NCBI RefSeq assembly: GCF_023101185.1
Contig: NZ_CP078077.1
Coordinates: forward strand, 1,579,630-1,643,629
Source: Microbacterium galbinum
Lineage (GTDB): Bacteria > Actinomycetota > Actinomycetes > Actinomycetales > Microbacteriaceae
Reading direction: 5' to 3'
DNA length: 64,000 bases
Shown: one piece after another, positions 29,816-37,472 of the stretch
Position numbering within the stretch: the stretch's first letter is position 1
How the letters are laid out: every line of letters starts with the position of its first letter
Program-made: the position numbers and the translations under genes
Notes under the pieces: model-generated
What the model was told of the DNA's origin: nothing
Databases searched by the model: none
Seen by the model: only the letters and a program-made list of their open reading frames with translations

Positions 29816-29905
29816 CCGTTCACAACTCCGGAGAAACCGGCCGATTCCGCACGGATCGGCCGGTTTCTCTGCGATTCGGGAGCAGATCTCCGGAGTCGTG
29901 GACGG
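29816..29905. repeat. Nested palindrome forming the convergent gene end and VanZ C-terminus
   Basis: Outer arms CCGTTCACAACTCCGGAGA (29816-29834) and TCTCCGGAGTCGTGGACGG (29887-29905) match in 17 of 19 positions as inverted repeats. Inside, GAGAAACCGGCCGAT (29831-29845) / ATCGGCCGGTTTCTC (29855-29869) is a perfect 15-bp hairpin. It begins at the SRPBCC stop and contains the last codons of the convergent VanZ gene, so it is probably a bidirectional terminator that has also become coding. Confidence 0.85.
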
Positions 29906-30455
29906 TTGCCGGTGCCCAGCGGAACCTGTCGATGAACCGGCCCAGCCGAGGCATCCGCACGAGGAGGAGCAGGATGCCGTAGCCCAGAGCGCCGCCGGTG
30001 ATGTTCGAGAGGAAGTCGTTGATGTCGGCGACGTGCCCGCCCGCGAAGAACCGCTGCGCCGCGAGCTGGGAGAGCTCGACGGTAAGGCTCACTCCGGCGC
30101 TGATCCCGACGACACGCGGCCACGTCGGGCTGGCGAGCAGCAGGGCGACGAGGATGCCGAGCGGCACGAAGACGAGAACATTCGTGAGAGCGTCGGCGAT
30201 CTCGTAGTCGGCGAAGGGCACGAGCGCGAGCGCTGGAGTCCAGGGTTCCCCGCTGCTCGGCTTGTTCAGGAAGATCGGAAAGATCGTGTTGCCGACGATG
30301 CCTGCTCCGTAGACGGCGAGGGCCGCGGCCACCGCGGCGCGGGGCCACGAGAACGCACGGCGGATCTGCAATCGCCACAGCATCAGCAGGAAGACCACGA
30401 GCGCGAGGGGAATGACGACCGGCAGCACCGGCACTTCGCCGAAGGGATTGTCCAT
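29820..30455 (-). CDS. VanZ family membrane protein
   Basis: A 211-residue membrane protein with about five hydrophobic helices and the VanZ motif GGHVADINDFLSNITGGALG (about 141-160). VanZ-like proteins influence glycopeptide susceptibility in some bacteria, but most members are uncharacterised. ATG 30455 was chosen over an upstream TTG. The last roughly 26 residues (from VHDSGD on) are encoded by the palindromic element at 29816-29905 and look unlike the rest of the protein. It is 12 kb from the van-like operon, so no functional link is assumed. Confidence 0.85.
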   Translation of the reverse strand: MDNPFGEVPVLPVVIPLALVVFLLMLWRLQIRRAFSWPRAAVAAALAVYGAGIVGNTIFPIFLNKPSSGEPWTPALALVPFADYEIADALTNVLVFVPLGILVALLLASPTWPRVVGISAGVSLTVELSQLAAQRFFAGGHVADINDFLSNITGGALGYGILLLLVRMPRLGRFIDRFRWAPATVHDSGDLLPNRRETGRSVRNRPVSPEL

Positions 30456-30530
30456 CGCATTCGACGTTACGGTCAATGCCGTCGCCGCCGCGTCATCCTG
30501 CGGAGTGATGTTCGGCGCTCGCCCGTGGCA

Positions 30531-30662: not shown

Positions 30663-32024
30663 ATGAGGATCACGCGCCGCACTCTGCTTCTGGGCGCCGG
30701 GGCCGGAGCCCTTTCGGTGCTGCTCGCCTCGTGCACGCCCGAACCCGAGCCCACGCCCACGCGCACTCCGACGCGTTCGCCCGAGCCGCAGCCCACGAAC
30801 GGCGTGCCGCTTCCGGCCGCCAGCATCCGCTCGACCTGGACGAGCGACCAGTACGCGTTCGGTGCCGTCAGCTTCGTGCCCGCCGGCGTCGGGGCCGAGA
30901 CCCGCAGCGCCCTCGCGCGTCCGGTCGACGACCGCCTGTTCTTCGCCGGCGAGGCCACCGATGAAGAGGCCCCGGCCACCATGCGCGGAGCGATCGCCTC
31001 GGGTGAGCGCGCCGCCGATGAACTGCGGGATGCCGCGGGCGACGGCGAGCGCATCGCCGTGATCGGTGCGGGGCTCGCCGGCGCCACGGCAGCCGCGCGG
31101 CTGAACGACGCGGGCTTCGAGGTCACCGTTCTCGAAGCGCGCGACCGCGTCGGCGGACGCGTGTACTCGCGGGTCGACGACGCCTGGCCACTTCCTCCGC
31201 AGCTCGGTGCGTGGCTGTTCGGCGAGGCGGATGCCGACCTCGTGCAGACCCTCGAGGCCGAGGACATCTCCGTCGTCGACCTCGCGGGCTCGCTCTGGCG
31301 CTCACCCGACGGAGACACGGATGCCGTCGCCACCGAGTCCCTCACGGCGGCGATCGCCACCGCTCAGGCCGCCCCCGTCGACAGCTCGGTCGCGGATGCT
31401 CTCGTCGCGGCCGGCGTCGACACGGCCGACCCCACGATCCTCGCCCTGCTCGCGCTTCTCTCGACGGCCTCGGGCGCGGAGGCCGCGAAGCTCTCGAGCT
31501 GGTTCGCCCCGCCGCTCCCTCCGACCGAGCCCGGCGCCGCCCGCGACAGCCTGCTGCCGTTCATCGAGCACACGCTCGACGGCGTGCAGGTCGGTCTCAA
31601 CCAGCCGGTCACCCGCCTCGCCTACGACGACACCGGCGTGAGCGTGCGCATGGGCACCGGTGAGGCGCTGTCGTTCGATCGCGTCGTCGTGACGGTGCCG
31701 CTCGGAGTGCTGCAGGAGCAGGGCATCGAGTTCGACCCGCCGCTGCCGTTCGCCAACCGCGGCGCGATCTCGGCGCTCGCGATGGGGTCGATCGAGACCG
31801 TGTGGCTGCGCTGGGACGAGCCGTTCTGGAATGCCGAGGAGGCGGTGTGGCACACGGTCGGCGGCGATGTCGGCATCCGCACCTGGATCAACCTGCTCCC
31901 CGCGACCGGCGAGAACGTGCTGGTGGGGATCGTCGGCGGCGACGCTGCGGCGAGGTTCTCGGAACTCGGCAAGGACGAGGCGATCACCCTGGCGCTGGAG
32001 GCGCTCGGGCCCTACGCCGCCTGA
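30663..32024 (+). CDS. Circularly permuted flavin amine oxidase, exported lipoprotein
   Basis: A 453-residue FAD-dependent monoamine-oxidase-like protein. The Tat-like lipoprotein signal MRITRRTLLLGAGAGALSVL has lipobox LASC (C24), then a Pro/Thr linker. Residues 56-121 (STWTSDQYAFGAV, FFAGEATDEEAPATMRGAIA, SGERAADEL) are the segment that normally closes amine oxidases. Only afterwards come the N-terminal FAD motifs: VIGAGLAGATAAARL (133-147) and EARDRVGGRVYSR (158-170). The protein ends at LALEALGPYAA, where the permuted piece would normally follow. So the C-terminal FAD-binding part has moved to the front; no frameshift or truncation is needed to explain it. Expected substrate is an amine outside the membrane; actual substrate unknown. 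Confidence 0.85.
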   Translation: MRITRRTLLLGAGAGALSVLLASCTPEPEPTPTRTPTRSPEPQPTNGVPLPAASIRSTWTSDQYAFGAVSFVPAGVGAETRSALARPVDDRLFFAGEATDEEAPATMRGAIASGERAADELRDAAGDGERIAVIGAGLAGATAAARLNDAGFEVTVLEARDRVGGRVYSRVDDAWPLPPQLGAWLFGEADADLVQTLEAEDISVVDLAGSLWRSPDGDTDAVATESLTAAIATAQAAPVDSSVADALVAAGVDTADPTILALLALLSTASGAEAAKLSSWFAPPLPPTEPGAARDSLLPFIEHTLDGVQVGLNQPVTRLAYDDTGVSVRMGTGEALSFDRVVVTVPLGVLQEQGIEFDPPLPFANRGAISALAMGSIETVWLRWDEPFWNAEEAVWHTVGGDVGIRTWINLLPATGENVLVGIVGGDAAARFSELGKDEAITLALEALGPYAA

Positions 32025-36107: not shown

Positions 36108-36433
36108 GCCGCGCGGACGGCGTCGACGAGGTCCCGCCACGGTCCGGACAGGGCCGTGTCGGGGACATCGCGCTCGCGCCGCTCGCGGGGCGTGCGCGCA
36201 CGGATGCTCCAGACGAAGCGGTCCGCCCCGGAGCTGCTCTCCAGATCGGCGTCCCACGGGCAACGGTCGATGCGATCGATCCACTCGCCCGCCTGATCGG
36301 GGGCGGCCTCGATGGTCCACCGACGGGAGATCCCGGCGATGCCGCCCGTGCGGACGACGGCGATGACCACCGGTGTTGCTTCGTCGTCGGCGGGCACCGA
36401 TGCCGGATCAGTCGGCTGCGGGGACTCGCTCAT
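36098..36433 (-). CDS. Emfourin-type protease inhibitor
   Basis: A 111-residue protein with VVIAVVRTGGIAGISRRWTI (about 21-40) and SGPWRDLVDAVRAA near the end, the pattern of protealysin inhibitor emfourin. Members bind and inhibit the adjacent M4 protease. It overlaps the protease gene by 26 bp. ATG 36433 was chosen; ATG 36439 is also possible. No signal peptide, matching the cytoplasmic-looking protease. Confidence 0.85.
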   Translation of the reverse strand: MSESPQPTDPASVPADDEATPVVIAVVRTGGIAGISRRWTIEAAPDQAGEWIDRIDRCPWDADLESSSGADRFVWSIRARTPRERRERDVPDTALSGPWRDLVDAVRAAAR

Positions 36434-37472
36434 CCTCATAGACTCCCACGGTCGTCCAGGCGCGTCGAGCGGCTGTCGCGGTGGCCTCATCGACCTCGGA
36501 TGCGGCCGCGACCGTTGCGTCGGCGAAGGCCGTGAACGTCGCCGTGCTCGACAGCCCTCCGGTGAGCGCGCGGTACCAGACGGTGCCGGCGGTCTCCCAC
36601 GCGTTGCCGCCGAGGTCGGTGGCGAAGAGGGCGAAGGCGCGGTTGGGGATGCCGGAGTTGATGTGCACGCCGCCGTTGTCTTCGGTCGTGCGCACGAAGC
36701 CGCTCATGTGGTCGGGCTGGGGGTCCTTGCCGAGCTCGTCGTCGTCGTAGCCCGTTCCGGGCGCGATCATCGAGCGCAGCGCCACGCCTTCCACCGCCTC
36801 GGTGAAGATCTCGGCGCCGATGAGCCAGGTGGCGTCGGCGGCGCTCTGCCCCTGCGCGTACTGCTCGGTCAGCGCGCCGAACACATCGGCGATCGACTCG
36901 TTGAGCGCGCCGGGCTGCCCCTGGTACTCGAGGTTCGCGGTGTGCTGCACGACCCCGTGGGCGAGTTCGTGGCCGATCACCGTGAGCGATCCGGTGAACC
37001 CGCGGAACACCTCGCCGTCGCCGTCGCCGAACACCATGCGCTCGCCGTCCCAGAAGGCGTTGTCGTAGTCGACGCCGTAGTGCACCGTCGCGTCGAGAGG
37101 TGCGCCGGCATCGTCGAGCGAGTTGCGGCCGAACGCCGAGAGCAGCAGTTCGAACGTCGCCCCGAGCCCGTCGTAGGCCTCGTTGACCGGCGCATCGGCG
37201 ACGGGCGGGTCGTCTTCGGAGCGCACGACCGCGCCCGGAAGGTCTTGCGTGTTCGCCGCGTCGTTGATCGTGCGGTTCGGGGCATCCGACAGCTGCGCGA
37301 CCAAGTCGCCGTTCTCGTCGATCGAGAGGTCGATGCGGGCGCGGAACGGCGGCCGGCCCGCGGTGAGGGTCTGCCGCGCGGCGGCGGCCGCACGCGGGAA
37401 CCGCCCCGATGCGGCCAGCCGGGCGAGCAGATAAGACGGGACGACTCCGTGGCTTTCGATCTGTGCGCTCAT
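36408..37472 (-). CDS. Protealysin-like M4 metalloprotease
   Basis: A 354-residue zinc endopeptidase. The zinc site is complete: HELAH (168-172), E192 in GALNESIADVFG, and H270 in GGVHINSGIPN. There is no signal peptide, only a short propeptide (about 1-50, starting IESHGVVPSYLLARL), which is characteristic of protealysin-type M4 enzymes as opposed to thermolysin. Paired with emfourin downstream. These proteases reach targets by unknown export or lysis; a role in interactions with other cells is reported for relatives. Confidence 0.92.
   Translation of the reverse strand: MSAQIESHGVVPSYLLARLAASGRFPRAAAAARQTLTAGRPPFRARIDLSIDENGDLVAQLSDAPNRTINDAANTQDLPGAVVRSEDDPPVADAPVNEAYDGLGATFELLLSAFGRNSLDDAGAPLDATVHYGVDYDNAFWDGERMVFGDGDGEVFRGFTGSLTVIGHELAHGVVQHTANLEYQGQPGALNESIADVFGALTEQYAQGQSAADATWLIGAEIFTEAVEGVALRSMIAPGTGYDDDELGKDPQPDHMSGFVRTTEDNGGVHINSGIPNRAFALFATDLGGNAWETAGTVWYRALTGGLSSTATFTAFADATVAAASEVDEATATAARRAWTTVGVYEDERVPAAD

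Follow-up and report, generated by a model that had tools for sequence, protein, structure and literature searches.

A circularly permuted protein of the flavin amine oxidase family with a lipoprotein-type leader in Microbacterium galbinum and related bacteria

Order of parts in the gene P0001

We analyzed a 64,000-nucleotide stretch of the Microbacterium galbinum genome (Microbacteriaceae; NCBI RefSeq assembly GCF_023101185.1, contig NZ_CP078077.1, positions 1,579,630 to 1,643,629 of the forward strand), hereafter the window. It encodes P0001, a protein that carries the parts of a flavin amine oxidase (FAO) in circularly permuted order behind a leader of the lipoprotein type. The open reading frame (ORF) is intact from ATG to TGA, and its parts and neighbors are listed in Table 1. 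A prediction made from the DNA letters alone (the original prediction) had described the protein as a circularly permuted amine oxidase exported as a lipoprotein, and every motif position that it gave was recovered: W59, D62, G67, FAGEAT at residues 94-99, GA..SG.RAA at 109-118 and GAGLAG at 135-140.

Table 1. Features of P0001 and neighboring genes, with positions in the window
Feature	Position	Strand	Basis or remark
Whole gene P0001, circularly permuted flavin amine oxidase, predicted to be exported	30663-32024	+	453 aa + stop; PF01593 6.8e-53, 3 stretches
Leader, residues 1-24 (TRRTLL with twin arginine; hydrophobic stretch; LLASC as lipobox with Cys24)	30663-30734	+	sequence
Pro/Thr-rich tether, residues 25-52	30735-30818	+	sequence; mean pLDDT of 10-residue blocks 30-81 over residues 11-50
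Moved segment, residues 53-121 (W..D....G..S, FAGEAT, GA..SG.RAA)	30819-31025	+	LSD2 700-773; PF01593 369-442 of 443
Join of old C- and N-termini, residues 122-128	31026-31046	+	5-7 residues in 68 permuted ORFs
Canonical-protein start, residues 129-172 (GAGLAG 135-140, E158, R160, GGR 164-166)	31047-31178	+	PF13450; PF01593 1-60
Remaining FAD and substrate domains, residues 173-453	31179-32021	+	PF01593 213-364; A3-A4 alignment ends at residue 453
T379 codon, column of the conserved flavin-N5 lysine	31797-31799	+	aligned with P0002 K277 and the LSD2 'iiekial' Lys
VanZ-like gene	29820-30476	-	flanks P0001
Pr6Pr-family membrane protein, convergent with P0001	32072-32722	-	NF038065 1.7e-30
Thermolysin-like M4 peptidase gene	36408-37472	-	PF02868 + PF01447; few kb downstream

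In a Pfam search P0001 matched PF01593 (Flavin containing amine oxidoreductase) with 180.9 bits against a cut-off of 19.8, which places it in this superfamily by similarity. When the genome was scanned with the same model (443 positions), the pieces followed one another in the gene as model positions 369-442, 1-60 and 213-364, each above the cut-off; the canonical order Rossmann motif, middle, C-terminal segment is replaced by segment, Rossmann motif, middle. The best match of a phmmer search against the PDB was LSD2 (4gu0, 1.7e-29), with residues 128-169, 300-436 and 48-121 of P0001 matching residues 336-377, 536-679 and 700-773 of the LSD2 chain, respectively. Rotating the sequence (residues 128-453 followed by 46-127) raised the PF01593 score from 180.9 to 197.3 bits and left two stretches in place of three, one of them unbroken over positions 213-442, which bears out the proposal that moving the segment to the C-terminus restores the canonical order.

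We aligned a profile of 56 permuted rows (A3) with a profile of 14 canonical rows (A4), and columns 128-461 of A3 matched columns 2-346 of the 428 in A4 with probability 100. Since this match runs to the present C-terminus at canonical position 346, the chain stops where the moved segment would begin, as had been proposed. The pieces are rotated and are collinear after rotation, a short linker connects the former termini and the new ends lie at a formerly internal site, as expected of a natural permutant. The C-terminal flavin adenine dinucleotide (FAD) segment (GE..T ... A..SG) occurs once in P0001, at residues 53-121, where it scores 119 bits with a model of that segment. A second FAGE..SG segment near the C-terminus, which the original prediction had named as evidence against a permutation, was not found: among the ORFs of loci L001-L082, searched with filters off, no second C-terminal segment scored above 4.7 bits, and no two-copy intermediate was present among these ORFs. 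The other contrary result named there, an N-terminal part that aligns as a different domain, was not obtained either: by the LSD2 match this part is the missing segment itself.

Conservation of the permuted order and of the leader

We searched 149 genomes of the same genus with the full-length permuted protein as a query (E<=1e-15). A match was found in 64 genomes and none in the other 85; by row count, 57 of the 64 matches, counting that of the window itself, begin at query position 1 or 2 and stay collinear up to position 348 or beyond, two are partial (G103, G108) and five cover the middle part only. With 57 collinear matches against 85 genomes without a match, the gene is conserved in the genus and patchy. 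Besides the window's own, all 29 genus loci retrieved with the full-length query were permuted.

For wider searches we aligned the 111 junction residues of 24 rows without gaps (A2); an end-to-end match to this alignment is expected only in a permuted protein. The family, class, order and phylum searches share genomes, and their counts are not additive. In Microbacteriaceae, 120 of 349 genomes matched, including three (G172, G335, G453) on the segment side only, which are canonical, and one (G160) over positions 1-101 in a short frame. The class search gave matches in 32 of 394 genomes, or 28 after removing four (G679, G703, G823, G866) that match on the segment side only and whose fetched genes are canonical; 14 of these 28 lie outside Microbacteriaceae (families f24, f26, f32, f37, f40 and f43). 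All matches of the order search (15 of 297 genomes) were from Microbacteriaceae except one weaker match (G1395, 7.2e-21), from a genome with 7% contamination, and six of the 11 matches among 396 genomes of the phylum fell outside the class (families f61, f69, f71, f74 and f110). The junction was found in Microbacteriaceae and 11 further families, six in the class and five outside it. We verified the full gene order at ten loci outside Microbacteriaceae (L070, L071, L073, L074, L076-L080 and L082), the other loci there being identified by the junction match alone. Homologues with the order described in the original prediction are present in the genus, family, class and phylum and, because so many relatives share it, the permutation is genuine and evolutionarily old and not an error. 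Genus g132 (family f24; loci L070 and L138-L143) contains both permuted (G527, G762) and canonical versions (G679, G703, G823, G866), and G527 carries both, its permuted copy being cut by a contig end.

A scan of contigs yielded two loci, both from Microbacteriaceae. A plasmid collection gave nine records, none of which covers 80% of the query at a single location, and the four records examined (L096, L134, L135, L136) were all canonical. No relative was found in a scan of viral contigs, and a search of predicted viral structures returned only distant matches, such as amine oxidases of giant viruses.

We then compared 68 permuted ORFs, comprising the best matches of the full-length permuted query (L009-L037), the loci of the contig scan (L038-L039) and the best matches of the junction profile (L040-L082), after discarding canonical genes, repeats (L040-L042) and loci whose ORF lacks the middle segment (L052, L075, L081). 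As these homologues were fetched with permuted queries, counting all 68 as proof of the order would be circular, and we used them to see how constant the join, the tail and the leader are. The segment and the Rossmann motif are separated by 5-7 residues in all 68 ORFs and by exactly 7 in 64, and the tail past the middle-segment model is 3-11 residues long in 64 ORFs and 15-42 in four. At L052 (G366) and at G083:C1:2255177-2256539, permuted genes appear to be split over two frames, through frameshifts or sequencing errors.

P0001 begins MRITRRTLLLGAGAGALSVLLASC, which contains a twin arginine, a hydrophobic stretch and a lipobox cysteine; residues T4, R5, R6, L8, G13, G15, L20, L21, S23 and C24 are invariant in the 27 rows of alignment A1. 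Using a permissive regular expression, we detected the twin arginine and a lipobox upstream in 64 of the 68 permuted homologues. P0001 is most likely exported by the twin-arginine translocation (Tat) system and anchored by a lipid. Of the original claim of an exported lipoprotein, the two motifs stand as observed, and export and lipidation are read from them.

Predicted structure, active site and competing explanations

From the 56-row alignment we built an AlphaFold2 model of P0001, which is a single confident fold with a mean predicted local distance difference test score (pLDDT) of 91.5 and a predicted template modelling score (pTM) of 0.87. Every 10-residue block between residues 51 and 450 averages at least 91, the blocks over residues 51-120 lie at 96-99 and values under 50 are confined to residues 1-30. 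The strands (E) and helices (H) of the segment (E53-56, E69-71, H79-85, E92-94, H107-124) have counterparts at the C-terminal end of P0002, a canonical paralogue in the same genome (G000 C1:3123761-3125011; E360-363, E377-380, H385-391, E399-401, H414-429), with starts offset by 306-308. In sequential structural alignments with maize polyamine oxidase (1b37), the P0001 model covers residues 5-378 (Z 24.4, root-mean-square deviation (rmsd) 2.4, 320 aligned) and P0002 covers residues 5-463 (Z 40.5, rmsd 2.7, 417 aligned); the part of 1b37 that P0001 leaves uncovered would correspond to the segment that P0001 carries toward its N-terminus. LSD2, LSD1 and maize polyamine oxidase were the nearest PDB relatives by structure, and a search of the PDB with the junction profile gave a best stretch covering one side only, among the best 60 of 286 sequences. 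The order of the parts, the rotation, the profiles, the secondary structure, this structural control and the conserved join support the real circular permutation put forward originally.

Residues G96, E97, G135, G137, G140, G164, G165 and R166 are identical in all 56 permuted rows, and E158 (55/56), R160 (54/56), T106 (53/56) and a Phe or Tyr at position 71 (52/56) are nearly so; we take F/Y71 and T106 to be the counterparts of LSD1 Y761 and T810. P0001 has the FAD dinucleotide motif GxGxxG ... E ... R followed by GGR, and from its sequence the moved segment is expected to complete the FAD site. In five pairs, the ratio of nonsynonymous to synonymous substitution rates (dN/dS) was 0.09-0.40 for the moved segment and 0.25-0.43 for residues 128-449; the segment is under purifying selection like the rest of the protein.

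FAOs have a lysine that is hydrogen-bonded through a water to flavin N5. In the 56 permuted rows its column holds Thr in 32 (P0001 included), Lys in 16 and another residue in 8. The lysine is kept in all ten permuted rows outside Microbacteriaceae versus 6 of the 46 inside, and in 13 of the 14 canonical rows, and the simplest reading is that it was lost within Microbacteriaceae after the permutation. Threonine at this position makes it plausible that P0001 is a dehydrogenase. According to two reports (PMC9396064, PMC12272882), NicA2 and Pnao retain the lysine yet react poorly with O2, so that the lysine alone does not make an oxidase.

We consider it highly probable that P0001 has an ordinary FAO fold, with the segment relocated behind the leader, and that it is an FAD-dependent exported lipoprotein oxidoreductase; its chemistry is most likely of the amine type, as judged from its family. 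In this explanation a C-terminal segment of about 70 residues, containing the GE..T motif together with the final helix of the FAD domain, was relocated between the twin-arginine leader and the dinucleotide motif. About 7 residues now link the old ends, and the chain terminates after the helix that formerly preceded the segment. The chain would fold as an ordinary FAO and would be loaded with FAD in the cytoplasm, the folded protein would be exported by Tat and lipidated on Cys24, and the enzyme would act at the external surface of the membrane, where it would abstract a hydride from a C-N bond of the amine type.

Several observations weigh against this explanation. The permuted family has a patchy distribution even among genomes of one genus, and the lipobox pattern is absent from four of the 68 homologues, three of which have the twin arginine (L073, L074, L076) and one no evident leader (L070). 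The flavin-N5 lysine is absent from P0001 itself (T379). The canonical position of the segment in three dimensions is suggested by the model, and sequential aligners did not superpose the segment itself. Finally, FAD binding, Tat export, lipidation and amine-type chemistry are all attributed to P0001 from protein families and motifs.

The missing lysine could also mean that P0001 is a pseudoenzyme, which would keep the FAO fold and maybe FAD and serve as a binding or sensing lipoprotein. The lysine is replaced in 40 of the 56 rows, P0001 included, but conservation is strong for the residues of the FAD motif and for the F/Y71-T106 pair, the lysine is universal in the permuted rows outside Microbacteriaceae, and purifying selection acts on the protein; we judge a pseudoenzyme unlikely. 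Still less probable is a swapped dimer, in which the moved segment would complete the FAD site of the neighboring subunit: a terminal segment could in principle be exchanged in this way and nothing specific points to it, whereas the model of a single chain has block pLDDT values of 96-99 over residues 51-120 and a pTM of 0.87. An assembly error, a frameshift or a fusion of gene fragments was rejected in view of the conserved permuted family and keeps next to no probability; two other genomes have the apparently frame-shifted copies mentioned above and P0001 has no sign of one, its genome being a single contig that is 100% complete, the collinear permuted match recurring in 57 of 149 genus genomes and dN/dS being well under 1 in both parts, in line with the intact, error-free frame originally described. 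That an unrelated N-terminal domain resembles the C-terminal segment by chance is equally hard to credit, as no support for it was found, the segment by itself matches LSD2 700-773 with 29 bits (45 bits with the family profile), its secondary-structure string agrees and P0001 has no such segment elsewhere.

Origin of the permutation and relation to known flavoproteins

Proteins are known to undergo circular permutation in nature. Inspecting canonical-order relatives by eye, we identified seven with RR...Cys leaders (L120, L123, L134, L135, L137, L144, L145), of which L134 is haloarchaeal, L135 cyanobacterial, and L137, L144 and L145 belong to Microbacteriaceae; the junction search of the family listed no permuted match in the genomes of these last three. 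Such relatives also occur in other actinobacteria. Given these canonical proteins with leaders, the ancestor from before the permutation was probably itself an exported protein, and the change likely led from leader-Rossmann-middle-segment to leader-segment-Rossmann-middle. Tandem duplication followed by in-frame fusion and the formation of new ends is proposed as a mechanism of permutation (PMC2213659).

In a tree of 50 rows, 32 of the 37 permuted rows formed one starred clade (98/90), and the tree did not resolve the other five (L073, L074, L076, L079, L082) from canonical rows at the same fork; with two long canonical rows omitted, the approximately unbiased test did not reject a single permuted clade (p-AU 0.161). 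We built a second tree of 44 rows, adding eight canonical rows and dropping nine permuted and five long canonical ones. A starred branch (95/91) separates 24 of 28 permuted rows from all other rows, and starred branches force at least two changes. Canonical L126 (G1094) groups with the permuted f40 proteins L073/L076 at 96/86, which may reflect a second origin, a reversal or a long-branch artefact. With this row set, one clade was rejected (p-AU 0.031), but not once L126 was omitted as well (0.188). As the second row set and the omission of L126 were chosen after the earlier trees had been seen, the trees do not settle whether there was one origin or several. A single event is favored by the common cut site and linker but is not demonstrated by the trees.

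A more far-reaching scenario, which we think unlikely, is that the same loop was cut independently more than once, in the core clade and in the f40-type group near L126. Placing the segment behind the lipid anchor would then have re-oriented the active site toward the membrane and, in Microbacteriaceae, would have accompanied the loss of the O2-activating lysine and a shift from oxidase to membrane-linked dehydrogenase.

The Pr6Pr gene adjoins the permuted gene tail-to-tail in 15 of 16 Microbacteriaceae loci (once with a predicted 115-aa ORF between them) and in none of five loci outside the family, in one of which (L114) ORF picking missed the permuted gene. Being convergent, the Pr6Pr gene is not an operon partner and, as it is the sole widely conserved neighbor, the context gives no substrate; a pairing limited to the family points to vertical inheritance there rather than to a shared pathway.

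With the FAOs of PF01593 (monoamine oxidase (MAO), polyamine oxidase, LSD1/LSD2, bacterial MAOs), P0001 shares the motifs, the glycines and glutamate of the FAD site and the predicted fold, and it differs from them by its permuted chain, its lipoprotein-type leader and Thr in place of the flavin-N5 lysine. The canonical leadered FAOs have its leader type and FAO domain, probably in the ancestral arrangement, but in them the leader runs straight into the Rossmann motif and the segment is at the C-terminal end. The paralogue P0002 belongs to the same superfamily, its pieces matching P0001 residues 131-255, 301-445 and then 48-121, and unlike P0001 it has canonical order, no evident leader and the lysine (Lys277). 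By sequence, P0001 descends from FAOs and probably works like them, departing from them in linear order and in the lysine. Neither the missing lysine nor the age of the family and its canonical exported relatives figured in the original prediction.

No NCBIfam model among the best 25 of 68 reached its cut-off for P0001, and at 1e-20 only HpnE matched, in 21 of 56 permuted members. In the literature covered, which excludes most subscription journals, we found no description of a permuted member of the MAO/LSD1/polyamine-oxidase superfamily. A natural circular permutation has been described in extracytosolic flavoproteins, the FMN-bind1 proteins (PMC11334425); these are of another domain family and have several domains, with a helix of the first one shifted to the C-terminus.

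Linear domain models fragment such proteins, as PF01593 does P0001. The permuted clade and its canonical exported relatives form a natural experiment on new termini in an exported cofactor-binding enzyme, and the same comparison informs the consequences of losing the flavin-N5 lysine in a lineage and the evolution of membrane tethering.
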